Notes under the pieces: model-generated
The model's database searches: none
Seen by the model: only the letters and a program-made list of their open reading frames with translations
Told to the model about the DNA's origin: nothing
Translations under genes and position numbers: made by a program
From: Apium graveolens
Taxonomy: Eukaryota; Streptophyta; Magnoliopsida; Apiales; Apiaceae
Length of the DNA stretch: 64,000 bases
Reading direction: 5' to 3'
Assembly (NCBI RefSeq): GCF_009905375.1
Contig: NC_133655.1
Coordinates: forward strand, 38,955,437 to 39,019,436
Shown: positions 2,371 to 63,760 of the stretch, in pieces
How the letters are laid out: each line of letters begins with the position of its first letter
Position numbering within the stretch: position 1 is the first letter of the stretch

Positions 2371-2454
2371 ATGAATAGGACCAAGCTCCCGATTCGCAAG
2401 CGATTAGGAGACGTTCCGCAGTTTTCTAGAAGCATTGATGCCGCCGTAGCTGAG
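2371..2454 (+). CDS. Putative H3-tail-like leader exon in family-L LTR (copy 1)
   Basis: An ATG opens 28 codons starting MNRTKLPIRKR, ending in phase 0 at GAG followed by the donor-like gtagga at 2455. Compared with the histone H3 N-terminus counted after its initiator Met (A1 R2 T3 K4 Q5 T6 A7 R8 K9 S10), positions R2, T3, K4, R8 and K9 match in register. Against the copies at 29542 and 39293, four nucleotide changes in the first eleven codons are all synonymous (one Asn codon and two Arg codons), while two changes near the C-terminal end are not. No domain other than the basic N-terminus is seen. That it is spliced and translated is inference; the reading frame also stays open for about 21 codons past the donor. 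Confidence 0.5.
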
Positions 2455-5114: not shown

Positions 5115-5609
5115 CTAATCATCCAGAATCTCTCTCAACACAACCAACATCCAGTGAATGATCTTATGCAGCCTCCGAGCCTCAGCATCAGCATCACTAG
5201 TGGATGGTCCCTCATCCAATCTCCTCCTGGAAACCTGCTCCACCAACTGATAACTAGCTCTCCACTCCTCCATCACTACTGAAGTCCTCTGCCTAGAGTC
5301 TCGAATCAACCTATCCACCAAAGCTCCCAACTCGGGAATGCGGGAGTAAACAAAGTCTCGATCTTGGGCTAACTTGCCACCAACACTGACAGGTACAGTT
5401 TTAGGCATCTCAGACTCTGGCTCAGGGGCAGGGGTCTCTGAATCTGGTCTCAAGGGTGAAATCTGCATAGGGATATCACTACTCTCAGAAGGGTCCTCCT
5501 CTGGGTATGAACTAACATACACATGCTCCTCTGGAGAGGGTGGAATGGGGTCCACTGGGGTACCGATCAAACTAATCTCTGAGTCTGAGTCACTGCCACT
5601 ACTAGGATC
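5115..5609 (-). CDS. Extra ORF upstream of gag in G1 (putative exon 2)
   Basis: An uninterrupted 164-codon frame on the element's coding strand, between primer site and gag. It begins DPSSGSDSDSEISLIGT directly after a minus-strand acceptor-like tract (ttttgtgttttctctcag, AG at 5611-5610). The first third is rich in Ser, Asp, Glu and Pro; the C-terminal two thirds looks helical and charged (around RIPELGALVDRLIRDS and RRLHKIIHWMLVVLREILDD). The frame extends 8 codons upstream to an ATG, but the acceptor and its phase match the LTR leader exon at 20709-20629, so I treat it as exon 2. The G3 counterpart at 60077-60433 shares position, the SSGSD start and a helical tail, not close identity. No known domain recognised. 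It is open although gag and pol are broken. Confidence 0.6.
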   Translation of the reverse strand, partial: DPSSGSDSDSEISLIGTPVDPIPPSPEEHVYVSSYPEEDPSESSDIPMQISPLRPDSETPAPEPESEMPKTVPVSVGGKLAQDRDFVYSRIPELGALVDRLIRDSRQRTSVVMEEWRASYQLVEQVSRRRLDEGPSTSDADAEARRLHKIIHWMLVVLREILDD

Positions 5610-5838: not shown

Positions 5839-5850
5839 GCTCTGATACCA
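5839..5850 (-). promoter_or_regulatory. G1 primer-binding site (tRNA-iMet type)
   Basis: The minus strand reads tggtatcagagc, complementary to the 3' end of initiator tRNA-Met as in most plant LTR elements, three bases from the LTR end at 5854. It fixes the element's orientation. Confidence 0.93.
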
Positions 5851-20628: not shown

Positions 20629-20709
20629 CTGCTCTGACAACCGGAAGCCCTCAACACGATAGGGACCACCAGGTACGCTCTTACGAGCAGTCCGCCTAAG
20701 CCTGGCCAT
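20629..20709 (-). CDS. Putative H3-tail-like leader exon in G1 LTR
   Basis: Minus-strand ATG at 20709 opens 27 codons starting MARLRRTARKSVPGGPYR and ends in phase 0 at CAG followed by donor-like gtagtg (GT at 20628-20627). With Met removed, as expected when Ala is second, it aligns with histone H3 at A1, R2, T6, A7, R8, K9 and S10; R replaces K4, and a GG pair and R17 follow as in H3. It is in phase with the extra ORF exon at 5609, across an intron of about 510 nt once the copia array is discounted; the intron contains the LTR end and primer site. A 10-codon ORF from the ATG at 20728 overlaps the start out of frame and could dampen translation. Confidence 0.55.
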
Positions 20710-29541: not shown

Positions 29542-29625
29542 ATGAACCGGACCAAGCTCCCGATTCGCAAGAGGTTAGGAGACGTTCCGCAGTTTTCTAG
29601 AAGCACTGATGCCGCCATAGCTGAG
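29542..29625 (+). CDS. Putative H3-tail-like leader exon, family-L 5' LTR
   Basis: 28 codons starting MNRTKLPIRKR and ending at GAG before donor-like gtagga at 29626. It is the copy that would lie on the genomic RNA's 5' side. A possible in-phase acceptor is the AG at 30162-30163, joining to an acidic frame that ends at 30331; the tract before that AG is weak in pyrimidines, so this is uncertain. Asn after Met suggests that Met is retained, unlike in H3. Confidence 0.45.
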
Positions 29626-30109: not shown

Positions 30110-30331
30110 TTCGTTATCGTATATGGTAGCGGGACTCTGAACCCTGAAGTTGAGGAACATCAGCGCGATGATGTTTTATTACTAATTGGAGATCGGATTG
30201 TGGATCCGATAGAGTGTCCTAATGCAGGACCGGATGATGTTGATATTGAGAATTTAGCGGTTGAGGATGTTGTCCTAGAAGGGATAGTTGTTGAGGAGGA
30301 TCCCATGGAGGATCCTGACAAGAATGAATAA
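30110..30331 (+). pseudogene. Acidic open frame after primer site, possible extra-ORF relic
   Basis: A stop-free frame of 73 codons without its own suitable ATG, rich in Asp and Glu (PDDVDIENLAVEDVV, then EEDPMEDPDKNE and a stop). It sits where G1 and G3 have their extra ORF. No sequence match beyond acidity is visible. It could be the family-L exon 2, or chance. Confidence 0.35.
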
Positions 30332-35480: not shown

Positions 35481-35496
35481 GGGACGGAATCCTTTT

Positions 35497-37615: not shown

Positions 37616-37647
<32 letters not shown>

Positions 37648-37705
37648 GGTTATAGTTTTCCAAACTATTAATCGAATAAGGTTTATTCGATAACTTTAAA
37701 CTTTA

Positions 37706-37903
37706 TTATTTATTGAATATTATTTGAATATTCATTCGAGGACTTATGACTCTTTTATATTATTTATTGAATATTATTTGAATATTCATTTGAGGGCTTA
37801 TGACTCTTTTATATTATTTATTGAATATTATTTGAATATTCATTCGAGGGCTTATGACTCTTTTATATTATTAGTGAATATTATTGAATATTCATTTGAG
37901 GAT
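37706..37903 (+). repeat. 54 bp tandem repeat in family-L 3' LTR
   Basis: Same array as at 27953-28150. Confidence 0.85.
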
Positions 37904-39292: not shown

Positions 39293-39376
39293 ATGAACCG
39301 GACCAAGCTCCCGATTCGCAAGAGGTTAGGAGACGTTCCGCAGTTTTCTAGAAGCACTGATGCCGCCATAGCTGAG
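39293..39376 (+). CDS. Putative H3-tail-like leader exon, family-L 3' LTR
   Basis: Identical to the exon at 29542. In a 3' LTR it has no primer site or coding region downstream, so it would matter only as the template for the next 5' LTR or if transcription reads out into flanking DNA. Confidence 0.4.
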
Positions 39377-39688
39377 GTAGGAACTACCAATAGGCTAGGC
39401 TTTCAACTTTTGATGTATCAGATTATGTATATTTATGAATTGTAATAATGGCAAAGAAATGTAAATTTATTCAGAAACCTGTTTAAGGTGTATTGGCATA
39501 TAATTGTGGAATAAAACAACTTGTGATTATTTTTGGATATTCATCTCTGAGACTATAACTTGTGGTGTGTGTGTTTATTGTGGGGTCACAGTACAGAGTA
39601 GTTGATTATTTATTAAGATTGGGTGTTGTTAAGGGAAATGGAACTCGTGACAACCCGGATCCCCGACCCCGGATTTGGGGGTGTTACA

Positions 39689-44497: not shown

Positions 44498-47400
44498 TGT
44501 GGCGCCCTCCAAACCCGGGTCAGAAGTTTGGGGTCCACAACACATACACAAAATATAAACCTGTATATAAAATATTATTTGCAAGGACCCTGCTTTACTT
44601 AACCACGGATCGTAACAGGTTAAAGTATGAAGATAAGCCACAACCTTAACTTTTAATACAACGTACCAAATCCCATTAATTTAATTTACAACTGATATGA
44701 AATTATTCTTACAACCTTACTATCTCACTACTGCATTAAGCTCCTGCTAGCTCGATCAATCATAATCTGGAATCCTAGCTCGAATATTGAACTGGGAAAC
44801 CTCGCTATCAACCGTATCCTTCTTAACTGTAGAATACATAAAAAGATTCGCAAGAGTGAGCTAACTAGCTCAGCAAGTCATATTATCAATAACTGAGGTT
44901 AAACAATAATAAACGAGATGATTCAAAGGAATCAAGTTTCCTGTTAAACAGTCAATAGAATTGGATATTCATTTTAAGTTTTTAAAACCAAGGTTAGGCT
45001 GCTGATCAGTCACGCACTAACCCCGAGCAAACCACACAACACTGCTCTAACTACTGGATCCAAGGCACACGTTGGCCTAACTTGACCATCGATATGGTCT
45101 GACCACGAATCTGGTCCACACAAAGAAAACTATCCAATTCTAAAGCATTTCAATATGATAAACAATAGAGTTCAATAAAACCAGATCATAATCAATAACC
45201 ATAAAACATTTGTAAAAGTGCATGGTAAAATTTCATAGTTACCAAAAAGGGTATGTCAAAATACATAAAAGAAGTGGCCTCCAGCCGGTAGGATAATCGG
45301 ATATTAGATGAATAGTATTTTTACAAGGTTTTAGTACTTTGATATCACAAGGTATGGTTGAGTATAAAAGTTTCTGTATGTGTAAACAATTCTGTTCCAG
45401 TTTTTGGTATATATGATGGATAGATATTTATGGAGTAGTATCTTATTTGTGTGGTTTAGTATCTGGTAAATCAACAAGAAATGGTTTACAAAGAATAAGG
45501 CTTACGGCTCAAAGATCAAATGTTGTGGCTCAGGTTCAAGGTTGAAGGATTCAAAATGTGTACAGTATAAAACAAAATTATTTTGGGTATTAACAATATG
45601 TCACAAGAGAATTTAGAAATATTTGCATTGTATCTTGAGAAAGGTTTAGAAATACTTGCCTTATCATAATCGATTTCAACTTCACTTGTACTTGTCTAAT
45701 GACCCCATTCAACAATCACTCGTCTGCTTCTCCTATGCCTCGCTTCTATCCTCTGATCACTTGTTGTATTTTCTACATGTAAATTCTATTTTCTGATCAC
45801 CTGCTTCTCTTTCTTACGCCTTTCTTACTCGGATAGGCATCATAAGTATCTATTAATATTTAACTCATACCATTCTATTCGACATACACTTCTATCTACC
45901 CTTCGTTTTACCCAAATCCGATTAACGGCTTAAAAGTTATGCTATAAACAAGTTATCACCGAACATATAGACCGATAGTCAACTAACAAGTCACGTATAA
46001 CACATAACACGTCAAATAATCAATGACATCTCATTTATAAAGAAGTCTCGGATCATAAACAGGCTTTCGGGTATTTAAAATGATTTTTAAAACATTTTTC
46101 GGAATTAAAACGGGTCATTGGATCAATTTCAGAGTAATAAACAAGGGTTGGTTGGCCAATTCTGGCTTCGAAACAATTTTATAATAATTATCGAGCCTTG
46201 GAACTAATTTAATATAATATTTTAAAGCTCGAAACTATTTTTCAGAATTTTTAAATCATTTTTAAATAATTAACTCTAATTAAATAATTAATTAAAATCA
46301 ATTAATAATTAATTAAATCAATTAATCAATTAATTTTCAAATTAATGGACTAATTAATCAATTAAAAATTAACTGAAATTAATTAAATAATTAATTCAGA
46401 TTTATTTTTGGATTAAAAATAATTTTTGGAATTAAAATAATGATTTTTGAAATTAAAATAATCATTTTCGGATTTTTCTGAAATTAAAAACAATTTAAAA
46501 AATAATTTATAAAAAGAAATCCGAAATTTGAAAGAATTCAAAACAGAAATTCAGAATTTTTAAAGTTCTGGAAACTTCAGGTACTAACTTGCAAAAATGC
46601 CAAAAACACTTCTGATTTAGGGAACTTTTGGATCAAAACCGGGTCAAACCGGGTCGGAATTCCGAGTCACCAAGAACAGAAACGGGTCGCGAAGAACCCA
46701 GTTTCCGGTGACCGGAAAATAACCCCGGCGAGCCCCGATTCGATCAAAAACGGCATGGTTTTACACGATTCAGGTGGGGTTTTCGTTCCAAATCACGACA
46801 GGAGTTCAAATCAAACCACAAACAAACCAAATGATATCTGGAAACAAAAATCCGGCCAAAAACTTCAAGAACACCGGCGAGAACTTCAAATCACAACTCA
46901 CTCCTCTACAGGCCTCGTCGATTTGCACAACTTATACGAATCGATTACAAATTTCAAGGGGAACAAAACCCACCCCTCTAGAACGTCTATCAATTCTGAA
47001 ATAAGAAACCCCCAAATCGAATTGAAAACATTCAAAGTAATATAAACCCTAATTTCTAAATTCCGAGAATCAAACCCAAAATTAAACATGTTATTGAACT
47101 CCAAATTTGAAGTATAATATATCAAAATGATCAGGAAAACAAGCTCTACAACATACCATCATCAAATCATTCAAACCATCATCCGTACAAAAATTCATAA
47201 TTTAAATACCAAGAAATTCGAATATAAATAATTAAATAGGAAATCACCTGATGTTTCTGGGTTGAAATTGATGGAAGATTTGGGTTCTAGATTTCAGTAG
47301 CTTCGTTTTGAATATATGTACGCCAAAATCGGACATCGATAACGCCTTCGAATTTGTGTTTGATTATGAAGCACAAAATATAATTATAGTATTTTCTCTG

Positions 47401-48151
47401 TAAAAACTCTGTAAATACTGTTTGCAATTGATTTCCGGTACAAAATAAAATACGGTAGAGGCTATTTATAATTACGGAAAATTAGTATCCCGTTGGATCA
47501 TTCCAGATATAAAACGGTACGTTTATTTATAAAAACTGATCCAAACGGTAGCGATTTTCGTGATAATTATCCAAATCAGTACAATTTGTACTGCGGTCTT
47601 GGTCTCAGCGCCTGGTTACACGTATTATGAAGTGATAATTGTAATAGTTTAATAAAAAGCTCCCGTTTATCGAAAATACGAGTTTTATTGATTTACCGAA
47701 ACGAATATTGTATCGAAAATGTTGCGCTGGGACCCGCGCAGGACAAACCGTACGCCGGATCGAAAAAGTCAAAACATGGAATATGCTCAGAATATTACAA
47801 TTGGGTTAGGAAGGAGTTCTCGGAAGAGTTTCGGGTTCTAAAAACGTAACAATGGATGACGTCGGTTGGTTCCCGTTTTTATAAAATAGATTTTAAATAC
47901 CTGGAAAAAGATTTTACAAAATTCATATGATTCCTATATATTCATAAATCAACATAAAAATAATTAGGAAGATATGACAATTATCTATATTTTATTTGGA
48001 ACATATATAAAAATTGAAACACTTAATTAATAACATTTTTTTAAACATTCAAACACATTTAACACTTAAATAATTCACAGAATAGATACTGAATACATAT
48101 AATAATTATCTATTAGCAAAAATAATTGCACGATATATCCCGGATATTACA
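44498..48151 (-). mobile_element. G2 3' LTR (left, 3654 bp)
   Basis: On + it starts tgtggcgccctcc and ends tattaca. It has exactly the same length as the right LTR (53704-57357) and differs from it by a few dozen substitutions, more than the family-L pair. A TATA-like ttataaatagcc lies on the minus strand near 47474-47462. Next to it, at 48152, is the polypurine tract. Confidence 0.96.
44756..44839 (-). other. G2 LTR short ORF at the leader-exon position, no H3 likeness
   Basis: At the equivalent place in the G2 LTR a minus-strand ATG opens 27 codons (MYSTVKKDTVDSEV...) and a stop. The first ten residues do not match histone H3. Its middle (VSQFNIR) resembles the family-L exon (VPQFSRS) slightly. 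No convincing donor is visible. It is a useful negative comparison. Confidence 0.35.
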
Positions 48152-48170
48152 TCCTTCCCCCTTAAAAGGA
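48152..48170 (-). promoter_or_regulatory. G2 polypurine tract
   Basis: The minus strand reads ttttaagggggaagga up to the LTR start tgtaatatcc. Confidence 0.92.
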
Positions 48171-48188
48171 TTCTGTCCTCAGTATCTC

Positions 48189-48620
48189 CTAAGAAAACAA
48201 ATGAGGACACTTTGCTCTCATATCACTTTCTAATTCCCAGGTTGACTCTTCAACCTTTGGGTTTCTCCATAATACTGTTACTAACTTTACCACTTTATTT
48301 CTTAATACTTTCTCTCTTTCCTCTAGAATCTCTATCGGACTCTCTACATATGACAAATCTGCCTGAAGCTCTATCGGCTCATATTCTATTACATACCTGA
48401 AGTCTGGATTATACTTCTTAAGCATCGATACATGAAAAATATTATGAATGTGCTCCATGTGCGGAGGTAACGTTAACTCGAAAGCTATTTTTCCAACGTG
48501 CTTTAAAATTTTAAAAGGTCCGACATATCTTAGGCTCGGTTTTTCTTTCTTTCCAAACCTCGTTAATCCCTTCCATGGCGATACTTTCAGTAGTACTAAG
48601 CTTCCTTCTTCGAATTCCAT
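48189..48620 (-). pseudogene. G2 integrase C-terminal domain and chromodomain-like tail
   Basis: An open frame of 143 codons: FEEGSLVLLKVSPWKGLTRFG, the GPFKILKHVGKIAFEL block and LPPHMEHIHNIFHVSML of the integrase C-terminus, then about 40 residues with VLWRNPKVEESTWELESDM, the signature of the chromodomain-like tail in Tekay/Del chromoviruses. In other chromoviruses chromodomains bind modified histone H3 and steer integration to heterochromatin; whether this tail does so is not known from the sequence. Open here, but upstream integrase is broken by stops. Confidence 0.88.
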
Positions 48621-49510
48621 GTCTTTCCTTGATTGATCTGTTTATTTCCTTTGACGGTCTGGTACGACTATCAATCTCTCCTGGATAACTTCGACAACTT
48701 TCTTTGTCTGCTGTACTAATTCAGGTCCAAGTATTTTGCGCTCTACTACTCCGTCTTAATACACTGGAGATCTGTATTGGCGATCATAAAGGGCTTCTTA
48801 GGGTGACATCCCGAAACTAGCGTGATAACTGTTGTTGCAAGCAATTTCTATCAGAGGTAAATGCTCGCCCCAATTTTCTTTGAAATCAATAGCACAAACA
48901 CGTAATAAGTCTTATATTGTCTGGATTATTTTTTCACGTTGGCCATCCGTCTGTGGGTGATAATCTGTACTCATATTCAATCTTGTTCCTAAACATTCTT
49001 GAAAACTCTTCCAAAATCTCGAATTAAATCTTGGATCTCGATCAGATATGATAGACAAAGGGATTTCATGACGAACTACACTTTTTTTCAGGCATCTATG
49101 GATCAACTTATCGAGTGAAAATCTTTCGTTTATAGGCAGAAAATGAGCTGACTTAGTAAATCTATCCACTATAAGCCAAATGGCATCATGATTAGTTTTT
49201 GTGCTTGGTAACCCCACCTATGAAATCCATGGTGATATGCTCCCACTTCCACTCTGGAACTTTCAATGACTGTAGCAATCCACTTGATCTCTGATGCTCT
49301 ACTTTAACTCTGTTGACATATATAACATCTGCTAATTCATTCTACAATTCCCCGCTTCATATTTAACCACCTATAATTTTCTTTAAATCTCTATACATCT
49401 TGGTACTCCCTGAATGGATTGAATACTTCGAATTATGAGCTGCCTATAAAATTTCATCCTTCAGTTCCATCACTGGTGGAATCCAAGTTCTAGAAGAAAA
49501 CCTAAGAATA
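48621..49510 (-). pseudogene. G2 integrase zinc-binding and catalytic core
   Basis: From 49510 down: HHCC-type N-terminus remnants (SKYSIHSGSTKMYRDLKK, then [30 protein letters not shown]), then the core frame 49217-48912 with IVDRFTKSAHFLPI (first Asp), IISDRDPRF (second Asp) and YHPQTDGQREK (Glu). A further degraded link (QYRSPVY, stop, VVERKILGPELVQQ) leads to the C-terminal domain. Several stops and shifts interrupt it. Confidence 0.85.
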
Positions 49511-50010
49511 CCTTGATCGTCCTTTTTGCGTGCACTATTCTTCCCATACTAAATGATTTATATCCTGATCTACTACCTCTTCCTGACACTTCTTTATCTT
49601 CTCTAACAATCCCGACTGAAAAGTTATACTTATACATTCTTACTCCTTTTTGGATCATGCACTCTGACTTCCAATTCCAACTTCTAGAATTCCATAGATA
49701 ATTCTTCTGGTACAGTCTTTATGTTCATTCTCTCTCCTTCTTGCTCATCTCTTGCCACTACATTTGCTTTTCCTCGAGAGTTCATACTTCAACTCTTATG
49801 GTCCGTATATATTTCACATCTTTCTCTATACTTATAATATTTCCCAATCTTTCAAACGAATATTATTGTTGCTTTTAATTCCCAGTTATGAGTAGGGTCC
49901 TTCTGTTCATAAGGTTTCGGTTGTCTGGATGCATATGCAATAACTTTAATATTTTACGTCAACACACATCCTATTCCCTTACGAGAAGTATCACTATAAG
50001 CTACCAAATC
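49511..50010 (-). pseudogene. G2 RNase H remnant
   Basis: Minus-strand pieces [40 protein letters not shown] and CEIYTDHKS are clear RNase H motifs with the catalytic Asp residues, but stops and a deletion before the integrase linker break the frame. Confidence 0.8.
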
Positions 50011-51050
50011 TCCCTAATACTTTCAAAGTGATAAAATAGGTGTTATAATCATTCTTTCATTTAACTTCGCAAAACTTTCCCCACCCTTCTCCATTTCACA
50101 TAACCTTCTTGCTTTTCCTGGTTAGCTTCATCCAAAATATTGTAATTTTTAAGAAATCTTACACAAATTTCCAATAATAACTAGCCCATGATAAAACTTC
50201 TTACTTTTGTTGGTGCTTCTGGTCTTTCTTCATTCATATTATCTTTAAATTTTCTGCTGAATCCCCTTTTTGTCTCCTCCTTACTGACTGTCTATACTAA
50301 GAATTATACTTCCTGCCATTAAAGTTTTCACCTGGTAAACTCTTTTATACCACTTCTTTCTTCTTTAACTCCTCAGCTATCATTGTATAGGTTGCATGGT
50401 TCTTCTTAAGTAACACCATCCAACTAACATTTCTAGAATTTTATAACCACAATACTGAGTTCTGGAAATTATCTTTGATATGTCCATAAGTTCAATCTTC
50501 ACTTGGTGATATACCTAGTCTTAAATCAATCTTATAAAAATACCTTGCTTCATTCATATAATTAAATAAATCATTGGTTCGAGGTAACCGATATTTGCTC
50601 TTGAGGGTAAACTCGTTGAGCTTTCGCTAACACATAATCTCATACTTTCATTTTTCTTATTAATACATTATGTCGGTGCACTTTAGGGGGTACGCTAGGT
50701 CCAGTTGCTTTTTCTTCTAATTATCTCCTGCATTTGCTCTGGTAACTCCTTTATTTTTATCTGGTGTCATTCTGTGTGGGGCTTTGGACACTGGCTTCAT
50801 TTCAAGTGCTAAATCAATCATAAACGCATTTTCTTTATCTAAAGGAAATATTGGTAACTCATCTGGAAATATATCTTGAGACTGTAAAATCTTCAAGTTC
50901 GGTTTGCTCCTGACTCTTATTTATAATCGCCATAGCACGTATATTTCGGTTACCGTAATCCTAAATCATTCTTAACAAGTTCTTTACTTTCCTTTGTCCT
51001 TTAAACTTCTTCATGTTCTCATTTGACATCTTCAAAACTATCTTCCATCA
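50011..51050 (-). pseudogene. G2 reverse transcriptase remnant
   Basis: Heavily decayed. Recognisable pieces on the minus strand are SKAPHRMTPDKIKEL near 50800, VYHQVKIE near 50490, and EERPEAPTKVRSF near 50230. No FxDD catalytic motif could be read. A protease-end-like piece (KKFKGQRKVKNLL) lies near 50990. Confidence 0.7.
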
Positions 51051-53688
51051 CGACAGTCTACCTGGGCATCACACTTGAATAGTTAATCCACTCCTTAGAA
51101 TAATGTCAAATCCTCTTATCTCAAATGATATTAATTCTTTGCAACTAATTGCCAGAAATATCGATTCCGCCATTGGTACTTACTTATTCAATAACTGCAC
51201 GTTCTTAACTTGCTAGTCCTTTGGTCATAAACTTATTGATTCAAAAAGATAATTCATCTGATTAATAAAACCTTGAGAGATATATAATCAAGTTGCTACC
51301 ACATCTTTCAATACTTTAACGCATAAGGTATTCGCATTAATCTTCCACGTCATCACATCCATATTCTAAATATCGTATCGCAAATTCTCGTTCTCGAAGA
51401 CGTATCTCTTATTAAAGTAGATTCCTTTGACTGTTAATGCATCCCTGGCTAGGGCAAGTGATTTATAATTCTCACCATATGCCCTTGTTTCCTTTCCATG
51501 CATGAGAGATAAATGAGACTTTGCCTGCTGGGTGTATAATACGTTGACTTTTGTTTGAAATGCTCTCGCAAAGAGCAACGGTACAACGAAACTACTAGAA
51601 GGATTCACAATTTTAATAAACTTAGAATTAAAAAGAAAGAAGAAGTAATGATTTGAATATGAATGAGACAACCATATAGTACTTAAGATGGCCAGTCTTT
51701 CATACCGTATGGCATACAGCACATGATTAAGTGGCGTCCCACCCGACTCTTTATCATTCAGACAAGTGTCTCATCATAACACTGTTTGTCTCAATCAGAA
51801 AACAAAACTCAAGGGGAATAATTAAGTTTGAAAGGAATGCAAAATCCTCTGTTTTGATATCATCAGAAAGAATTTATTAAGAAAAGGAGTTCATACATTT
51901 TTAGGAATTAAAAAGGCATATACGCTATAATGTTGAGGATAAGAATGATACCATTGGTCACCATCCACATTCCACTTGTATTCATCTTTCGAGTTTGATC
52001 GATCATATCCCAATTGCATCGTATAACAACTTTAGAAGTATGCTAAAATGCCTTTGCAACTAAGCATTATGGTAGATTCTTACTTGTAACGTCGCAACTA
52101 CACATGTAATACTTTAACAATTCGATCGAAATGGCATTCTTATCAAATAACCTTGAGTTTCCTCTTTTTAATTTGGAATAACCATGAATCATTCAACATA
52201 GCGATCATTTTATTAACAATATTCTTCCTTTAGAAAAGTCTGGAAATTTTCCCAATCTTTTTCGGTCATGCTCAAGCTTCCGTTTAATTAATGAATTCTT
52301 TGAACTCTAATAATCCCAGTAATTGGATGAATAGTTACTCCGTACACTGGTTCTGTTGTTAATCCTATCAGACAATACTTGCACCCACTTCTACATAATC
52401 ACAGGTTACCTCGTTCTCCAAATTAACAATACTGAGTCTGAAACAACATCCTTCCAAATAATTTGGGTCTTTTAACAAACAAGAAACTCAAGTAATAATT
52501 TGACAACCAAGGTTTAAAACTTATTTTATTCAAAAAGGCTTTTAGAAATTTTGTGAGGAAAAATCTTTTTTTTTTCTTTTCTTTTTTTTTCGAAAACTTG
52601 TTAAATTTTTTTGAAAATTTTGAAAATCACACCTCTGGTTGTTCTCACTATATGAGTTGGTTGTTGTCCTTCTTATGACCAAATACCAAGTTAAAGAACG
52701 ATCCCTCAAAGGTCCATTCACTTCCATTTATCTCCTCTCTTTCATTGGGGTCTATTACTTTCCTTAATCAATAAAAACTTCCGTTGCCGTTGCACGTTAT
52801 CTTATTCGTAGCTTCACATTAAGGCTCCCATACTGGTAGTACTCCCGCTAACCACTCTGCAATCATTAGGTGGAACAGACTATCCAATAGTCAACAAGTC
52901 AGCTAATGTCACATCATCTTGTTTAAATATATATCACATCATTACAACATCATTAATTTCAAGAAATCTTCAGATCCCTAATCTCCTCTAACTTTCTCTC
53001 TTCAACACTTATCTACTCCATTTCACAAGCTAGTCATGAGTGGCCTAGTTACTAACAACTTCTTGTAACCTGATAACAGCTATCCTCTGAAATACTTAAA
53101 TCTTCTTTCTAAACTCCTTCTCACCTCAATTTGTATCTCAATACTCACCATTTACTGCAGCTATCGAGTCTCTTCTCGCAAATACTGTTGTTTCACTGGA
53201 AAGGTTTTTTTTTTTTAACTGAGGATATAAAATATGGTGTTTAGTAAACAGAAAAGATACATCCATAGTTGAATGTTCAATAGAACAAGAAGAAGCAAAT
53301 GAAGATTCTTGAATAGGTAGTCTCATATCAAAAGATGATAGAATAGCGTTGAATAACTTGGAGAGGCGCAACTGTCATAACAGAAGGTAGTACCACTAAT
53401 ACCGATGGAAGAACAAGGCGGAAATCGAATCGGGAAGAAGATGACGATCCTTAAATGGAAAGCTCCAAACGATCAGTTGATGTAGGGAAATCAGGATCTG
53501 TCATTGCCGTTGCCTGGATATCACGTCGCGAGTTAAGAATCCCGAATCGCAACACGAATCGTGCTGGGGACCTACTATACAGTCGCACTCAACCTCACGA
53601 TGGCTTATCTTTCTATTTCCTATTCCTAATCCTAAACCTTTACCCAATGCCGACTATCTAGGCTTGTTTCAGTGACTTATAACCTGTA
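51051..53688 (-). other. G2 interior where gag should lie; nothing recognisable
   Basis: No zinc knuckle, capsid motif or protease active site can be read. A 118-codon frame at 51366-51722 (minus) has no motif that I recognise and may be chance. This suggests that gag was lost or replaced, as in LARD-type non-autonomous elements. Confidence 0.5.
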
Positions 53689-53700
53689 GCTCTGATACCA
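53689..53700 (-). promoter_or_regulatory. G2 primer-binding site
   Basis: Minus strand tggtatcagagc, three bases from LTR start 53704; complementary to initiator tRNA-Met. Confidence 0.95.
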
Positions 53701-53703
53701 ACC

Positions 53704-56700
53704 TGTGGCGCCCTCCAAACCCGGGTCAGAATTTTGGGGTCCACAACACATACATAAAATATAAACCTGTATATAAAATATTATTTGCAAGGACCCTGCT
53801 TTACTTAACCACGGATCGTAATAGGTTAAACTATGAAAACAAGCCACAACCTTAACTTTTATTACAACGTACCAAATCCCACTAATTTAATTTACAACTG
53901 ATATGAAATTATTCTTACAACCTTACTATCTCACTACTGCATTAAGCTCCTGCTAGCTCGATCAATCATAATCTGGAATCCTAGCTCGAATATTGAACTG
54001 GGAAACCTCGCTATCAACCGTATCCTTCTTAACTGTAGAATACATAAAAAGATTCGCAAGAGTGAGCTAACTAGCTCAGCAAGTCATATTATCAATAACT
54101 GAGGTTAAACAATAATAAATGAGGTGATTCAAAGGAATCAAGTTTCATGTTAAACAGTCAATAGAATTGGATATTCATTTTAAGTTTTTAAAACCAAGGT
54201 TAGGCTGCTGATCAGTCACGCACTAACCCCGAGCAAAGCACACAGCACTGCTCTAACTACTAGATCCAAGGCACACGTTGGCCTAACTTGACCATCAATA
54301 TGGTCTGACCACGAATCTGGTCCACACAAAGAAAACTATCCAATTCTAAAGCATTTCAATATGATAAACAATAGAGTTCAATAAAACCAGATCATAATCA
54401 ATAACCATAAAACATTTGTAAAAGAGCATGGTAAAAATTCATATTTACCAAAAAGGGTATGTCAAAATACATAAAAGAAGTGGCCTCCAGCCGGTAGGAT
54501 AATCGGATATTAGATGAATAGTGTTTTTACAAGGTTTTAGTACTTTGATATCACAAGGTATGGTTGAGTATAAAAGTTTCTGTATGTGTAAACAATTCTG
54601 TTCCAGTGTTTGGTATATATGATGGATATATATTTATGGAGTAGTATCTTATTTGTGTGGTTTAGTATCTGGTAAATCAACAAGAAATGGTTTACAAAGA
54701 ATAAGGCTTACGGCTCAAAGATCAAATATTGTGGCTCAGGTTCAAGGCTGAAGGATTCAAAATGTGTACAGTATAAAACAGAATTATTTTGGGTATTAAC
54801 AATATGTCACAAGAGAATTTAGAAATATTTGCATTGTATCTTGAGAAAGGTTTAGAAATACTTGCCTTATCATAATTGATTTTAACTTCACTTGTACTTG
54901 TCTAATGACCCCATTCAACAATCACTCGTCTGCTTCTCCTATGCCTCGCTTCTATCCTCTGATCACTTGTTGTATTTTATACATGTAAATTCTATTTTCT
55001 GATCACCTGCTTCTCTTTCTTACGCCTTTCTTACTCTGCTAGGCATCATAAGTATCTATTAATATTTAACTCATACCATTCTATTCGACATACACTTCTA
55101 TCTACCCTTCGTTTTACCCAAATCCGATTAACGGATTAAAAGTTATGCTATAAACAAGTAATCACCGAACATATAGACCGACAGTCAACCATCAAGTCAC
55201 GTATAACACATAACACGTCAAATAATCAATGACATCTCATTTATAAAGAAGTCTCGGATCATAAACAGGCTTTCGGGTATTTAAAATGATTTTTAAAACA
55301 TTTTTCGGAATTAAAACGGGTCGTTGGATCAATTTCAGAGTAATAAACAAGGTTCGGTTGGCCAATTCTGGCTTCGAAACAATTTTATAATAATTATCGA
55401 GCCTTGGAACTAATTTAAAATAATATTTTAAAGCTCGAAACTATTTTTCAGAATTTTTAAATCATTTTTAAATAATTAACTCTAATTAAATAATTAATTA
55501 AAATTAATTAATAATTAATTAAATCAATGAATCAATTAATTTTCGAATTAATTGACTAATTAATCAATTAAAAATTAACTGAAATTAATTAAATAATTAA
55601 TTCAGATTTATTTTTGGATTAAAAATAATTTTTGGAATTAAAATAATGATTTTTGAAATTAAAATAATCATTTTCGGATTTTTCTGAAATTAAAAATAAT
55701 TTTAAAAATAATTTATAAAAAGAAATCCGAAATTTGAATGAATTCAAAACAGAAATCCAGAATTTTTAAAGTTCTGGAAACTTCAGGTACTAACTTGCAA
55801 AAATGCCAAAAATACTTCTGATTTAGGGAACTTTTGGATCAAAACCGGGTCAAACCGGGTCGGAATTCCGGGTCACCAAGAACAGAAACGGGTCGCGAAG
55901 AACCCAGTTTATGGTGACCGGAAAATAACCCCGGCGAGCCCCGATTCGATCAAAAACGGCATGGTTTTACATGATTCAGGTGGGGTTTTCGTTCCAAATC
56001 ACGACAGGAGTTCAAATCAAACCACAAACAAACCAAATGATATCTGGAAACAAAAATCCGGCCAAAAACTTCAAGAACACCGGCGAGAACTTCAAATCAC
56101 AACTCACTCCTCTACAGGCCTCGTCGATTTGCACAACTTATACGAATCGATTACAAATTTCAAGGGGAACAAAACCCACCCCTCTAGAACGTCTATCAAT
56201 TCCGAAATAAGAAACCCCCAAATCGAATTGAAAACATTCAAAGTAATATAAACCCCAATTTCTAAATTCCGAGAATCAAACCCAAAATTAAACATGTTAT
56301 TGAACTTCAAATTTGAAGTATAATATATCAAAATGATCAGAAAAACAAGCTCTACAACATACCATCATCAAATCATTCAAACCATCATCCGTACAAAAAT
56401 TCATAATTTAAATACCAAGAAATTCGAATATAAATAATTAAATAGGAAATCACCTGATGTTTCTGGGTTGAAATTGATGGAAGATTTGGACTCTAGATTT
56501 CAGTAACTTCGTTTTGAATATATGTACGCCAAAATCGGACACCGATAACGCCTTCGAATTTGTGTTTGATTATGAAGAACAAAATATAATTATAGTATTT
56601 TCCCTGTAAAAACTCTGTAAATACTGTTTGCAATTGATTTCCGGTACAAAATAAAATACGGTAGAGGCTATTTATAATTACGGAAAATTAGTATCCCGTT

Positions 56701-57357
56701 GGATCATTCCAGATATAAAACGGTACGTTTATTTATAAAAACTGATCCAAACGGTAGCGGTTTTCGTGATAATTATCCAAATCAGTACAATTTGTACTGC
56801 GGTCTTGGTCTCAGCGCCTGGTTACACGTATTACGAAGTGATAATTGTAATAGTTTAATAAAAAGCTCCCGTTTATCGAAAATACGAGTTTTATTGATTT
56901 ACCGAAACGAATATTGTATCGAAAATATTGCGCGGGGACCCGCGCAGGACAAACCGTACGCCTGATCGAAAAAGTCAAAACACAGAATATGCTCGGAATA
57001 TTACAATTAGGTTAGGAAGGAGTTCTCGGAAGAGTTTCGGGTTCTAAAAACGTAACAACGGATGACGTCGGTTGGTTCCCGTTTTTATAAAATAGATTTT
57101 AAATACCTGGAAAAAGATTTTATAAAATTCATATGATTCCTATATATTCATAAATCAACATAAAAATAATTAGGAAGATATGAAAATTATCTATATTTTA
57201 TTTGGAACATATATAAAAATTGAAACACTTAATTAATAATATTTTTTTAAACATTCAAACACATTTAACACTTAAATAATTCACAGAATATATACTGAAT
57301 ACATATAATAATTATCTATTAGCAAAAATAATTGCACGATATATCCCGGATATTACA
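53704..57357 (-). mobile_element. G2 5' LTR (right, 3654 bp)
   Basis: Partner of 44498-48151. TATA-like ttataaatagcc on the minus strand near 56680-56668. Followed by TSD gttat. Confidence 0.96.
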
Positions 57358-57362
57358 GTTAT
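57358..57362. repeat. TSD of G2, right copy (gttat)
   Basis: Matches 44493-44497 and shows that G2 inserted into the G3 LTR. Confidence 0.93.
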
Positions 57363-59939
57363 TTTGAGAATAAGGGAGTTAGTTCAGTAGATTACCATGT
57401 ATAAGTCTTGGTTTAAGTATTGGGATGTTGGTAGTTGAGTTTGTCAAGTCAAAACCTTGGAGAAATGAGAGTTATAGTTTCTGCAGAAAATCAGTTTAGT
57501 ACCTTGAGGTTTAGAGTGAGTTTTGACCATGTCATTGATGTGCATTTTGAGGGCCAAGCCACCAGAAGTTAGTATTGGGAGTATATAAAAGGTTTTAGGA
57601 GTTGGTTGGAGGTTTGCATGTCTTTTGGTTAGGTGCACAAGTAGAATAACAAAATCTGTCCAGCAGGGGACAGTTTTGTTGCAACTTAGAAATAGGAAGA
57701 TTTGACCATGTCATGGGTAGGCCCTCATTAGGCCCTATTGGGCCTTAGTTAGAGGGAGTGTCAGAGAAGTTTTTCCAATCATAGTTCATAGGATATGAGT
57801 TAGAACCATGTGTCACAAGTTAATTCAAGTCAGGGCGTTTTCTGCCCAAAAAAACAGGGGAACCTTGGACTTTTAGCTTAGGCCCAAGAAGGCCCAAGCC
57901 AGGCCCTTGAGCCACATCAAGTTTGTGAGATGCCCTTAGGTCAAGAGAGTCTTGTGTAAAAGTTTTGAAGGAAAACTTGTAGTTTAAGAGTGCCTAATGC
58001 ACTCAAGAAACTTGTCATTCTGAAATTTGCACCAGTGAGCGCTTTCACTTATCACATAGTTTTAGAACACTTAGAAGTGAGTAATAGGTCGACCACCATA
58101 GTTGTAAGATGGTATAAGGTCAGTAGAGCTAAAGGCACAAGTGAAGGTCAATAGGTTTTGGATAATTTTGGAAAGGCACATCGAGTTAGGAAGCCAAAAT
58201 TAGAAGACCTTGTCTAGTTTAGCGACCAAGTGACTTAAGATGTGAGTCGAGATCATCCAAGCCTAGTGTTGCATTATCGTATATATGGTGTTATTTGGTG
58301 TTAATATATGATATGTGAATATGTGGCTATGTGTGTACTTTTGTAATTTAAAAGTGAATATAAAATTAAGTGCGTATAGGCCTAAGTGCCATCCGTGTTT
58401 AATTTCAAGTTGTAAATAGGTTAAGATGGTAAGAATATATTATAATGAGGATTATTATTATTATGTAGGATCTCGAGACGAGGGAAAACTTTCCATAAAG
58501 GTTGAGTGAAGCTCCAGTTGCTCCTACCAGTCAGACCAGACCAGCCTTTCTCAAGGAAAGTGATTCAACTTGACCTTCGTATTTACTATAAACAGTTCAT
58601 ATATATATTGATGCAATTATCCTGAGTCATTTGATATGTTTTAAATCAAGCGTATCTTTCGTTTATCTTTGAATTATATAGAAATGCCATGAACCCTCGA
58701 GTATGTATTGCAAGTAGTTCAAAAGCCTTTTCATGATAGTTAAATGCCATGATAAAATGAAGAGTTGATATATTACTTGATTGATCCTCTTGATTAACAT
58801 GCTGATGATTCCTAAGTATTGATATCTCGTCATGATACTTGAATCCCTATAGAACCTTATCTTGAACCCTGAAAGTCAGAAACTTATCAAAGTGATCCCT
58901 CATTGGTTGATACCCCTCTTTCTTATCCTAAAGCTTGACAACTCTGATATATCCTGAGCTAAAGAATCATTTCTTCATACCTTAACATCCATAGTATTCA
59001 TAAAGCTTATCTTCTTGATGATCCAACACCTGTACCTTGACGAGAAGCCATTGCTTTAAGCCCAGTTTGGCATTACCCCTTTATATTATCCATTAGTCTC
59101 ACTAAATTTTCCTGTCCAAGTTCTGACATATGAAAACCTTTTGGTCACCCTAATAGAGTAAAATTTTGTAAATCATGGCCCTGAGATTTAGTACCATATT
59201 TCCCGTGTTTCGAGTTGATCTATAATCCCTTGATAAAAATGTTTACTGTTAAAAGAGATTTTGTTATAATTCGGCATCAGTTTTTGAAATAAATAAAATA
59301 TGGGTTTTCAGTCCCAAAGGGGGATAAATGTTTTCCTTAAATAGTGGATCTGGACTGAGACGCGAGTCCTTTCCACACTGATATTAGGCTTAAAAGTTGC
59401 ATAGGGATTCCCGTTAATGTTTTAGAACCCAGCGAGGTTCGGGACTACTTCGCTGCTGATCACCGGCTGTAATCCGTAGCGTCATAAAATGATTTTGATT
59501 AAGACATAATTTTAAAATTGTTTTGATACAAGCAAAATGATGCCATCTCATATAGTTTTATCTCTTGTTACCATTGGTTATGTCTTTCCATTGTCATTCT
59601 TTAATGTATATCTCGATTTATGTTTTGTGTCATACTGTTAGCACTTGTTGATCATTTGGCTCACTCCTTGCTTTACCCTGATATTATAGCTAGCAGCTAT
59701 GGTTAGATTCAAGCAGACTGCCCGTAAGACCTGTGATGCTGATGCTTATGTTCAAGCTCAGGTATAATAAGTAATAATAGTTTGTGTGAGGACTCGGTAC
59801 TTTTAATCAGATGTAATAGTTGGTAGTGTTGGGCTGTTCCAAACCCTAAACTGTAAGATCTTGGAGTTGGTTGTGTATTCTTCTTTTAAAATGTTGTAAT
59901 AGTTATATTTAATTTGCTGTTTAAGTTGGGGGCGTGACA
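57363..59939 (+). mobile_element. G3 5' LTR, second part
   Basis: Runs from the G2 insertion to the LTR end gggggcgtgaca at 59939. It contains the H3-tail-like exon at 59699. The preceding module ttggctcactccttgctttaccctga resembles the module before the family-L exon, so the two LTRs share a common design at this point. Confidence 0.85.
59699..59761 (+). CDS. Putative H3-tail-like leader exon in G3 LTR
   Basis: ATG opens 21 codons, starting MVRFKQTARKT and ending in phase 0 at CAG before donor-like gtataa (GT at 59762). After Met, residues R2, K4, Q5, T6, A7, R8 and K9 equal histone H3, and T replaces S10, so the block KQTARK that carries the H3K4 and H3K9 methylation sites is identical. 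The DNA aagcagactgcccgtaag is also close to typical plant H3 coding sequence, which raises the possibility of capture from a host H3 gene. An acceptor-like AG at 60075-60076 would remove a 315 nt intron that includes the LTR end and primer site. It is too short to be found by ordinary gene prediction. Confidence 0.55.
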
Positions 59940-59944
59940 GGTTT

Positions 59945-59956
59945 TGGTATCAGAGC
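59945..59956 (+). promoter_or_regulatory. G3 primer-binding site
   Basis: tggtatcagagc, five bases after the LTR end; complementary to initiator tRNA-Met. It lies inside the putative intron. Confidence 0.95.
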
Positions 59957-60076
59957 TACGGTTTAGAGTCCCTGGACAGCCCCAATAGGTTATAGGATAT
60001 GTGTGTAGGTTATAGATAATATGCGAGAGAGTAGGTTAAGTAAATTATTATTCATACTCCTCTTATTGGTTGTCAG

Positions 60077-60433
60077 TAACGGGCGCATTCCTCGTCATCC
60101 TCTGGGTCGGACGACACTATTGCTTTCACAGTGTATGCTGAGTTGATGCGCGAGTTCGACATGCTTCAGGGCAAGTATGACCGACTGGTAGACCGACTGA
60201 AGAACGTGTATCCGGACAGTCAAAACTACGAAGGGAAGCCCAAGGAGCAGATGACCGCGGTACTTGAGACCTTGGTTCAGTACGTCAACACTAAGCTTGA
60301 AGAGATGCCAGCGCACCGGGACCGTACCAGCCAGTATGTCATTCAGATGGTGGCGGAAGAGCTCCAGAGCATTGTGAAGACGCTTCGAGAGGAAAAGACT
60401 ACCAAGCCCCGTTCACATGGAGTGGAGCCTTAG
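60077..60433 (+). CDS. Extra ORF upstream of gag in G3 (putative exon 2)
   Basis: After the tract tactcctcttattggttgtcag the frame gives one stop codon (TAA at 60077), then HSSSSGSDDT, YAELMREFDMLQGKYDRLVDRL and a helical, charged C-terminus ending at 60433. From the first ATG (60131) it is 100 codons. The frame is in phase with the leader exon at 59699. The Ser/Asp start and the following helix parallel the G1 exon at 5609-5115. The region around LQGKYDRLVDRLKNV suggests a coiled coil. No known domain. The TAA could be a C-to-T mutation, like others in this element, or the acceptor may differ. Confidence 0.55.
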
Positions 60434-60745
60434 TTCTTCCCATTTACCTTTCATGTTGTTGTACTATCAGACTCTATGGAATCCCCAGTTGTTTCCGTTG
60501 TTTCCTTTAAATAAGCCTGTTATTCCTAGAATCAGACCTTGTCCTAATCCTATGTATTGTGACCTTTAAAATTTCAATAATTATGTGTTATTGTTCCGTT
60601 TGCTCTCAACTGTTATTTTATGTTTTTATCATCATATCTGCTTAATTTGGAAACTTGACCCCATATGTAAATGAGAATGCCATGCGATACCCTCAAATCG
60701 TTTTATCATTCATATCTGTTTTGACACAACTCTTATTTCAGGATC
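60434..60745 (+). other. Spacer between extra ORF and gag in G3
   Basis: Non-coding. It ends in ctcttatttcag directly before the gag start, an acceptor-like tract, so gag too might be reached by splicing. Confidence 0.5.
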
Positions 60746-62365
60746 ATGCCTCCCAAAAAGAAGAACCCAACAACCACATCCACCATAGACCCAAATATTC
60801 TTCGACTACTGGAAACTTTGCAACAGCAAACCAATGCTATAGCTCAACAACAACTAACTCTTCAACAACGAATTGAAAACCAAGATAACCGTAAGCCACA
60901 CCAACCACCTGAACCACCAGTACCACCTAGACAAATTGTCACTTTCAAGGATTTTCAGAATATGAATCCACCTGCATTTCATGATACCACTGATCCAGTG
61001 ATAGCTAACACATGGATCAAGGAGATGGAAAGGGCTTTTGAGTTGGTACAGTTAGGAGACGATCAGAAGACGCCGTATTCTACTTACTTCTTGAAGGGAG
61101 AAGTCATCTATTGGTGGGAATCAGTAAAAGCTATGGAAGTCACTCAGCAGGTTTCTTGGGAAAGATTTAAGAAGTTATTTCTGGATAAGTATTACCCTAA
61201 GTACATGCAGAATCACATGGAGCTAAAATTTCTTGAGTTGAAGCAAGGGAACATGACTGTATTGGAGTATGAGAAGAAGTTCACTGAGTTGTCAAGGTTT
61301 GTGACAAAGTATACCAGCACTGAGGAGGAAAAAGCAAAGAAATTTCAGCAAGGATTGGAGCCTTGGATTAGAGATAGGGTGGCTATGTTTGAGCTTGAAA
61401 CTTATGCGGGAGTAGTACAGAAAGCTGCTCTGATTGAGAATAATGGGATGCAGTCGAGGAAAGAGAGGGATAACAAGAAGAGGAAGGTTCCATTTTATGG
61501 AGAAAAGTCTAAAGCCGGAAGTTTACAAGGTCGGAATGTAAAGATGATTGGTTTCCAGAAGGGCGGAAATTTTCAAAAGAAAGGAAATTTGGGTAAAAGG
61601 CAAGAATCGAAGGGGAACAATCAGGCAAGCCAAGGGCAAGTTGGAGAAAACAGGTTCCAGAGGCCAGAATGCAAGCACTGCGGAAGAAGGCACCCCGGAG
61701 TGTGTAATAAGCTGAGCATGACATACTACAGGTGCAATCAGAAGGGACATTTGGCGAATGAGTGCAAGATGCCGAAGCCAGGAGTTACGTGTTACAAGTG
61801 TGGGAAGACTAGACACATAGCTAGGGAGTGCAAGGCAACCGGACCAGTCAAAGCTCTGATGAATGTGGCAAGTACCAGTGCAAGCGTGCCAGCTGAGGTA
61901 TTGGCATTACCTCCACTACCTACACCAACCCCGCAAGCAACAACAAGGACATTTGATTTGAAGATGAAGGATGATGTACAGAATTCGGAGGTGATAGCAG
62001 ATACACTTTTACTCAATAATGTCAAACCTAAAGTATTGATTGATTCGGGAGCAACAAGATCTTTCATATCAGAATCTTTTGTTGATAAGTTTCAATGTGA
62101 GAAAATGATTATGAGTGAGGTAGTAAATTTGGTAATTGCGAACCAAGAGAAGATTCCTGTGAATCAATTTTGTCCAAAGTGTGAGATTGATATTTCGGGG
62201 TATAAGTTCTCAGCCGACTTGATACTCTTCAAGTTGGGAGAGTTTGACATAATTTTAGGAATGGATTGGTTAGGAGAGAATAACGCTCAGATTAATTGTA
62301 AGACCAAGAGAGTGTACTTAAAGATGAAGAGTGGAGAGAAGGTAGTATTTAAGGGGCAGAGGTAA
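60746..62365 (+). CDS. G3 gag-protease (539 codons, premature end)
   Basis: Starts MPPKKKNPTTTSTIDPNILR, with a Gln-rich N-terminus (residues 25-50), the retrotransposon gag capsid domain (about 60-230; FQNMNPPAFHDTTDP, WERFKKLFLDKYYPKYM, EYEKKFTELSRF), a basic linker, zinc-knuckle region (about 310-370) and an aspartic protease with DSGATRSF at about 433 and IILGMDWL near 500. In the knuckles, the first cysteine of one is Tyr (YYRCNQKGHLANEC) and in the next the Gly before His is Arg (CYKCGKTRHIAREC). It ends at a TAA where the frame continues in phase into RT. Gag forms the particle and binds RNA; the protease matures the polyprotein. Tekay-like chromovirus. Confidence 0.93.
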   Translation: MPPKKKNPTTTSTIDPNILRLLETLQQQTNAIAQQQLTLQQRIENQDNRKPHQPPEPPVPPRQIVTFKDFQNMNPPAFHDTTDPVIANTWIKEMERAFELVQLGDDQKTPYSTYFLKGEVIYWWESVKAMEVTQQVSWERFKKLFLDKYYPKYMQNHMELKFLELKQGNMTVLEYEKKFTELSRFVTKYTSTEEEKAKKFQQGLEPWIRDRVAMFELETYAGVVQKAALIENNGMQSRKERDNKKRKVPFYGEKSKAGSLQGRNVKMIGFQKGGNFQKKGNLGKRQESKGNNQASQGQVGENRFQRPECKHCGRRHPGVCNKLSMTYYRCNQKGHLANECKMPKPGVTCYKCGKTRHIARECKATGPVKALMNVASTSASVPAEVLALPPLPTPTPQATTRTFDLKMKDDVQNSEVIADTLLLNNVKPKVLIDSGATRSFISESFVDKFQCEKMIMSEVVNLVIANQEKIPVNQFCPKCEIDISGYKFSADLILFKLGEFDIILGMDWLGENNAQINCKTKRVYLKMKSGEKVVFKGQR

Positions 62366-63382
62366 GAGCAACTATTTCTTACAATTGTTCAGGCTAAGAA
62401 GCTACTTAGAAAAGGTTGTGAGTCGTTCCTAGCTTATGTAGTGGATTCGGAAAAAGGCAGCCCCAGCATGGAAGATATCCCTGTAGTTAACGAGTTCCCG
62501 GATGTGTTTCCCGACGAACTACCAGGCTTACCACCAGATCAACAAATCGAGTTCGAGATCAACCTTGCTCCAGGAACGGAACCAGTTTTAAAGGCCCCAT
62601 ATAGGATGACACCAGCAGAAATGAAAGAGTTGGCGAGCCAGCTACAAGAATTGTTGGATAAGGCAGTGATACGGCCAAGTGCGTCGCCATGGGGAGCACC
62701 TGTTCTGTTTGTAAAGAAGAAAGATGGGAGTATGCGTCTATGCATAGATTATCGGGAGTTGAATAAGGTAACGATCAAGAACCGCTACCCGCTACCAAGG
62801 ATAGATGACCTTTTTGATCAGTTGAAAGGAGTAAAATGCTTTTCAAAGATTGACTTGAGATTGGGATACCATCAATTATAGATCAAAGAAGAAGATGTTC
62901 CCAAGACCGCATTCAGGACCAGATATGGGCATTATGAATTCCTAGTAATGCCGTTTGGACTGACCAACGCTCCGTCCATATTTATGGATCTGATGAATCG
63001 GGTATTTAAGAAGTATTTGGACAAATTTGTCGTGGTATTTATTGATGACATCCTTATTTATTCTAAGTCGGAAGAAGAACATAAGCAGCACCTCTGGATA
63101 GCATTAGAGATACTCCGACAAGAGAAGTTGTATACCAAGTTTACCAAATGTGAGTTTTGGTTAAAGGAAGTTCAATTTTTGGGACATGTTATTGGAAATG
63201 AGGGAGTTAAAGTGGATCCGTCAAAGATTGAGGCAGTTATGAGTTGGGAGAGGCCAAAGACTCCTACGGAAGTGCGAAGTTTTCTAGGATTGGCCGGATA
63301 CTATAGAAGATTCGTCAAGGATTTCTCGAAGATTGCCACGCCATTGACCAAGTTAACCAGAAAGAATCAAAAGTTTGAATGA
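62366..63382 (+). pseudogene. G3 reverse transcriptase, two stops
   Basis: In frame with gag-protease after one [37 protein letters not shown], the finger motif [34 protein letters not shown], then a TAG at 62879. The palm follows with [20 protein letters not shown] and the catalytic FIDD in [11 protein letters not shown] (both Asp present), GHVIGNEGV and the connection motif [19 protein letters not shown]. It ends at a TGA (63380) where relatives have Trp. Only these point changes stand between this copy and an open RT frame. The enzyme copies genomic RNA into cDNA. Confidence 0.93.
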
Positions 63383-63760
63383 AGTGCAGAATGTGAAGAT
63401 AGCTTTCAAGAGTTAAATCAGAAGTTGGTAACAGCTCCGGTGTTGGTACTTCCAGATGATCAAGGGAACTTTGTAATATTCAGCAACGCTTCACATAAGG
63501 GTTTGGGTTGTGTGTTGATGCAACACAGTAAAGTGATCGCATATGCGTCAAGACAGTTGAAACCGCATGAGTTAAAGTACCCGACGCATGACTTGGAACT
63601 AGCCGCCATAGTGTTCGCACTTAAGATTTGGAGACATTACCTCTACGGAGAGAAGTGTGAAATCTACACGGATCACAAGAGTTTAAAGTACATTTTTACT
63701 CAGAAAGAGCTCTATATGAGGCAGAGGAGATGGCTGGAATTGACTGTTCGATAAATTACC
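63383..63760 (+). pseudogene. G3 RNase H, catalytic Asp to Asn, frameshift
   Basis: The frame reads [29 protein letters not shown], where the first catalytic aspartate of the family is Asn (codon 63485-63487). [19 protein letters not shown] and [17 protein letters not shown] are normal. The frame ends near 63754 through a small deletion with frameshift before the YHPGKAN linker. The enzyme would degrade the RNA strand of the hybrid; loss of the Asp should abolish this. Confidence 0.9.

Follow-up and report, generated by a model that had tools for sequence, protein, structure and literature searches.

A start codon near the end of a long terminal repeat (LTR) in celery opens a short frame that reads like the tail of histone H3, and the question raised by this locus is whether the element makes use of that likeness or has it for some other reason. 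The locus lies in a 64-kb window, by which we mean the whole stretch of 64,000 nucleotides that was analysed. The ATG at 59699 on the + strand opens MVRFKQTARKTCDADAYVQAQ, encoded by 59699-59761, and translation of 59699-59770 gives MVRFKQTARKTCDADAYVQAQV followed by two stops. Counted from Met, 8 of 10 residues are identical to the H3 start MARTKQTARK; the initial annotation had counted seven matches in the nine residues that follow Met, KQTARK included, and this was confirmed, as was its placement of the peptide near the LTR end, which lies at 59939. The frame also meets, in phase 0, the GT donor at 59762 at which it had been said to stop, and this donor and an acceptor-like AG at 59688-59689 flank the exon. 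The claim built on these observations, an H3-tail mimic in the LTR of this element (family A below), is partly supported. Absent from that annotation is the likely role of the peptide as coding exon 1 of a protein of the ORF0/5'aORF type, one that occurs in several families. Judging from sequence, we give about an even chance to the reading that the peptide is the LTR-carried first exon of a spliced accessory protein, likely ORF0/5'aORF, whose N-terminus is likely an H3-tail mimic that would occupy readers, methylases or demethylases of the host. The family A features are as follows.

59690..59761, + strand: LTR exon 1, a 9-nt leader (LAA in gene models) and the H3-tail-like start MVRFKQTARKTCDADAYVQAQ
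59762..60076, + strand: predicted intron, GT...AG, which excises the LTR end and the primer site
59930-59939, + strand: LTR end GGGCGTGACA, within the predicted intron
59945-59956, + strand: primer binding site TGGTATCAGAGC, within the predicted intron, 246 bases 3' of the ATG
60080..60433, + strand: exon 2 frame, 117 aa, a Ser/acid-rich linker and then three predicted helices
60746..62365, + strand: gag-protease frame (Retrotrans_gag, zf-CCHC, RVP_2)
62441..63751, + strand: reverse transcriptase and RNase H in stop-broken pieces, continuing beyond the window

Because the window holds a single family A LTR, with the element continuing beyond the window edge, there is no LTR pair to compare, and the 3' end and the primer site serve to define this LTR.

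The H3-like start is found elsewhere in the window. Among 2461 window ATGs on both strands, five open peptides with at least 6 of 10 matches to MARTKQTARK: 59699 in family A, 20709 (- strand) in family C, and 29542, 39293 and 2371 (+ strand) in family B. Each of the five belongs to an LTR and lies about 240 to 395 bases 5' of the LTR end when the element nested in family C is excluded, and the frame of each peptide reaches a phase-0 [GC]AG/GT donor. The exon is thereby present in three of the four gypsy-type LTR families and in five of the seven LTR copies of the window. The family C peptide, MARLRRTARKS (MARLRRTARKSVPGG), has 7 of 10 matches to H3 and that of family B, MNRTKLPIRKR, has 6 of 10 at each of its three positions. 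The features of families B, C and D are these.

20629..20709, - strand: family C LTR exon 1, MARLRRTARKSVPGGPYRVEGFRLSEQ and then a GT donor; present in 21 of 53 retrieved proteins
5115..5609, - strand: family C exon 2, 164 aa, preceded by a TTTTCTCTCAG acceptor
5839..5850, - strand: family C primer binding site
29542..29625, + strand: family B 5' LTR exon 1, MNRTKLPIRKRLGDVPQFSRSTDAAIAE and then a GT donor, in the LTR at 25755-29937
39293..39376, + strand: family B 3' LTR exon 1 copy, in the LTR at 35510-39688
2371..2454, + strand: third family B LTR exon 1 copy, without a primer site downstream
30110..30328, + strand: tentative candidate for family B exon 2, 73 aa and acidic
53704..57357, - strand: family D LTR, with the upstream motif GCTCACTCTTGC at 54067 and without an H3-like exon

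The two family B LTRs (25755-29937 and 35510-39688; 4.2 kb) are 99.6% identical, with a primer site after the 5' LTR only. The internal region of this element (25755-39688) is full of stops; the element probably inserted recently and is unable to move without help. The family C LTR is interrupted by a nested element at 5986-20470. By self-comparison this nested element is a tandem recombinant, with three near-identical repeats of ~1.72 kb (5986-7707, about 12361-14082 and 18748-20470) and two internal copies. The family D element (44498-57357, - strand) was inserted beside or within the family A LTR; its LTRs of 3654 bp are 97.9% identical and GTTAT stands on both flanks. The ATG peptide scan found no H3-like peptide in either family D LTR, although family D has the upstream motif and the primer site too.

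That motif, GCTCACYC(C)TTGC, occurs in the LTRs of three families: in A at 59659 (+), in B at 29495 (+), 39246 (+) and 2324 (+), and in D at 54067 (-) and 44861 (-). In families A and B it precedes the start codon by 40 to 47 bases, and in family D it has a like position; the exact motif is absent from family C. It is possibly part of a 3' splice site, and it may be a branch point.

A fourth H3-like type, family E, is known from a model protein alone. The celery gene model P0050 starts MARLQQTQRKRVGSVPRLPDDVVAAIAAE and carries MARLQQTQRKR (7 of 10 matches to H3) spliced onto the family A exon; past residue 8 it resembles family B (RKR.G.VP, then AAIA.E). Across families A, B, C and E the majority residues are MARLKQTARK. 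R2, R8 and K9 are common to all four types, and K4 is confined to A and B. The R-x-K-x-x-x-R-K register on which the earlier claim was staked also occurs in two further LTR families of the window, with the qualification that its first lysine, K4, is R in family C and Q in family E.

The elements themselves are likely Tekay/Del-type chromoviruses (Ty3/gypsy), an assignment made by structure and LTR ends and not by a reverse transcriptase tree. The site TGGTATCAGAGC, which we take to be a tRNA-iMet primer binding site, is present in all four families of the window, at 59945 (A), 29942 (B), 5850 on the - strand (C) and 53700 on the - strand (D). Family A follows the gypsy order, from a gag that bears CCHC knuckles through protease and reverse transcriptase to RNase H. 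In family C the only such piece recognised covers zinc knuckle and protease, and the integrase end of family D matches SH3_Tf2-1 and scores 16.1 bits for Pfam Chromo, under the cut-off of 25.1. Among the grass elements, the LTRs of RIRE8 and Retrosat2 end in GGGCGTGACA (PMC3485330), and Retrosat2, RIRE3 and RIRE8 are filed under Tekay (PMC11728184). An extra frame lies between LTR and gag both in family A (60080-60433, ahead of gag at 60746) and in family C (5609-5115 on the - strand, ahead of a gag-like frame at about 4575). By this position, the spliced accessory protein is likely the ORF0/5'aORF of Tekay-type chromoviruses.

Celery gene models bear on the splicing. We sorted the 53 retrieved proteins by the downstream half of each exon, which gave 5 with the family A exon, 21 with C, 15 with B and 1 with E; chance matches in P0015 and P0038 were excluded from these counts. 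The junction 59762/60076, which had been singled out for a check, is used by three of the five family A models (P0006, P0051 and P0052). P0006 (AgCh_013390) reads ...MVIFKQTARKTCDANAYVRAQ-QRAHSSSSSG..., with exon 1 joined to the exon 2 frame. The joined exons 1 and 2 of family C match all 191 aa of the celery RefSeq protein P0009 (LOC141682795 isoform X3) at 92%, and the family C junction is used in 4 of the 21 proteins with that exon (P0009, P0014, P0016 and P0017). LAAM opens the exon in three of the five family A models (P0006, P0050 and P0053) and LSKKM does so in 9 of the 21 family C proteins; the acceptor in these models lies 9 to 12 bases upstream of the ATG, so an upstream leader exon is likely. 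Transcripts in which the H3-like exon 1 is joined to exon 2 are predicted by models that may, for RefSeq and AgCh alike, be partly ab initio.

Most retrieved models splice the exon onto other, mostly unrelated exons, which points to prediction noise. In P0021 and P0020 the H3-like exon is fused to ribosomal-protein / ARF-like frames, as seen from precomputed Pfam matches and by eye. It may be that these and other chimeric models are annotation noise, or that they are real LTR-driven chimeras.

Could the likeness be a chance resemblance in a non-functional LTR frame? An in-frame stop at 60077-60079 opens exon 2 of the window's family A copy, which is therefore probably dead, and its pol is broken, as such a reading would expect; related models are without that stop. 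Simulation speaks against chance. In 60 first-order simulated windows we found four 6/10 peptides and zero at 7 or 8, and in 200 further simulated windows eight 6/10 peptides, none above and none with an in-frame donor (an in-frame AG/GT 33 to 93 bases 3' of the ATG), where the real window has five. The looser pattern M.R.K...RK did not separate them in this way: it matched four times across 60 simulated windows and four times in the real window, three of the latter being the family B copies. Given the simulations, and since the exon turns up again in other families and among celery models, we regard chance as the least credible explanation, with hardly any weight.

A serious alternative, if one that we think fairly unlikely, is that the peptide is a basic leader of ORF0 for nuclear localisation or nucleic-acid binding, its H3 likeness being a by-product of a K/R/T/A-rich ancestral sequence. 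All four peptides are basic, and a nuclear-localisation signal is predicted in the sunflower Tekay 5'aORF (PMC11728184). We shuffled residues 2-11 of each peptide 300,000 times with composition kept. The observed identity was reached in 0.014% of shuffles for A, 0.075% for B, 0.019% for C and 0.085% for E, under 0.1% in each family, and the joint match of the four peptides in 0/300,000, a figure that is not a product of independent events because the families may share an ancestor. The H3 match is made by residue order, not by composition, and a nuclear-localisation signal has no reason for a Met start in H3 register. If the families do share one ancestor, the matches are not independent, and to that extent the leader explanation gains. 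No alignment above shuffled controls was found in any of the six pairs of LTR segments from families A, B, C and D; each segment began 250 bases 5' of the exon and ran through it to the LTR end (the C segment ends at the nested element).

Over the first 11 codons, the family B copies at 29542 and 2371 show four base differences, none of which alters the amino acid; over the other 17 codons they show two, both replacing. Since 25.6% of random changes in the block would be silent, four silent of four has p about 0.004 (0.017 by codon), with small numbers and a block boundary set afterwards; amino-acid constraint on the first 11 family B codons is accordingly suggestive only. Among the family C exon proteins, R2 and R8-K9 are present in 21/21 and TARK in 20/21. 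The register persists in other family A copies, as the mimic claim had anticipated, with K4 and R8-K9 in 5/5 celery models and R2 in 4/5, and R8-K9 is kept in 14 of the 15 family B exon proteins (P0020 lost R8-K9, and P0048 lost R2 and K4). These within-family figures are biased upward, because the proteins were retrieved by similarity to the queries.

It is also conceivable, and in our view improbable, that the exon goes back to the start of a host H3 gene taken up by the element, the remnant being kept as a convenient splice donor exon without any mimic function. Families A and C have the codons ACT GCY CGT AAG in common, and in family C TARKS is followed two residues on by GG, near the GG of H3, as a captured gene might leave them. 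Set against this, no family is H3-like beyond residue 10 to 14 although the frame is open to the donor, R2, R8 and K9 are common to four types, and the changes in the block between the two B copies are all silent. A mimic of the H3 tail, carried by a spliced first exon, remains our preferred account of the same observations.

The reach of the exon beyond celery was surveyed by several routes. All 38 of 38 database matches were named Apium graveolens, and viral contigs gave no relative by exon scan, by two primer-site patterns or by reverse transcriptase scan. The genome-contig scan returned two loci, L008 and L009, the second distant at 27% identity. L008 (1-3565) is a plant gypsy fragment with a primer site at about 1236 in the Labilibacter sediminis assembly NZ_VCHY01000050.1, where it is probably contamination; no + strand ATG peptide in it scored above 4/10 against H3. 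Rfam gave no match on 57358-61000.

Family A exon 2 has eight relatives, seven proteins from JGI/ENA contigs and one celery model. AlphaFold gave a mean pLDDT of 64 for family A exon 2, modelled without exon 1, and of 60 for the family C protein P0009, whose residues 1-52 are below 50; at this low confidence, both are modelled as a loose N-terminal part and three helices. Pfam returned nothing over cut-off for family A exon 2 and no match for P0009 or P0051. Both families have a Ser/acid linker and three helices, yet profiles built from the exon-2 alignments of A and C matched with a probability of 1.5%, so homology between them is not shown. Fold searches of the PDB with A exon 2 and the C protein found none at E <= 0.001 and no histone fold among the matches listed. 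The best viral-library fold match for the C protein, a herpesvirus US11-type protein (E 0.0078, TM 0.26), was taken as noise. The three exon peptides of 21-28 aa matched nothing among PDB sequences at E <= 10, the queries perhaps being too short.

We propose the following route for the preferred reading. Transcription would start upstream in the LTR, and the intron spanning the LTR end and primer site would be excised. Since that intron removes both, the protein would be made from subgenomic RNA only, and the primer site used in reverse transcription would stay in unspliced RNA. The helical part may hold the protein together or to a partner, and the H3-like tail would compete with H3 for a pocket, for example in an H3K9 methyltransferase of the SUVH type or a demethylase of the LSD1 type. 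Occupation of the pocket would weaken silencing of the element. The constancy of R2, R8 and K9 favours an H3K9-type pocket over an H3K4 one. In each family the H3 match starts at Met, in H3 register. N-terminal aminopeptidase removes Met before V or A and not before N; the second residue is V in family A, A in families C and E, and N in family B. A free H3-like N-terminus is therefore not expected in family B, where Met stays by this rule.

A different binding partner would be the element's own integrase chromodomain, for which the peptide would be a ligand linking the ORF0 protein to the integration complex. The integrase tail of family D is chromodomain-like at the sub-threshold Pfam score given above, but group II chromodomains are without the aromatic cage (PMC12786077), and the family A integrase lies outside the window. 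We consider this very improbable. The wider proposal, that Tekay-type elements carry a maintained LTR-encoded H3 mimic, spliced over the primer site onto ORF0, as a general anti-silencing weapon, is one we advance tentatively and rate at a little under even.

If the mimic is real, it would be the first H3 mimic of an LTR retrotransposon and would give a function to the long-orphan ORF0. An H3-like start that is hidden in the LTR and seen only after splicing would explain why it had been missed. There would also be a concrete class of targets, the readers, writers and erasers of the H3 tail, and resistance to silencing would be testable. Should the celery models be real transcripts, LTR splice donors would graft H3-like tails onto host genes. 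A literature search for H3 or histone mimics in retrotransposons, or for spliced frames of LTR elements, had no such report among the matches listed, most subscription papers and bioRxiv lying outside its scope.

Several known systems share parts of what is proposed here. GFI1 blocks the LSD1 pocket with its N-terminal SNAG peptide, a mimic of the H3 tail (PMC5896174). SNAG of GFI1/SNAI1 is thus an N-terminal H3 mimic like the one proposed, in animal transcription factors; for the celery peptide, binding is something we infer. Plant transposons encode anti-silencing proteins, among them VANC (PMC10398659, PMC5735166), which differs from the protein considered here in binding DNA sequence-specifically and in belonging to another transposon group. 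As a transposon accessory protein that counters silencing, VANC of the Arabidopsis VANDAL transposons otherwise resembles our proposal. We know of no H3-like tail in VANC. Influenza NS1 is a viral protein with a tail that copies H3; this mimic is C-terminal and belongs to an animal virus, not to an LTR element.

The nearest systems are the accessory frames of related elements. ORF0 is known in Retrosat2, RIRE3 and RIRE8, in grasses only per the authors, with hydrolase-type functions predicted (PMC3485330). Like family A, these grass elements have an extra frame beside gag-pol, and RIRE8 and Retrosat2 share its LTR end GGGCGTGACA; their LTRs are of about 3 kb and the fast-diverging protein is without assured function (PMC3485330). 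In the portions of that text available, histones and introns go unmentioned and splicing appears in a reference only. The 5'aORF of sunflower Tekay group 2 likewise adds a frame on the 5' side; its product is for the most part disordered, has three helices apart from one another and is predicted to be nuclear; it differs in its length of 402 aa and its C-terminal nuclear-localisation signal (PMC11728184). A word search of the sunflower text found no mention of histones, splicing, introns or mimicry, and an LTR exon for ORF0/5'aORF is not described in the available parts of PMC3485330 or PMC11728184. On the literature found, ORF0/5'aORF is already known, without an agreed function, and the H3-like LTR exon would be the new part.
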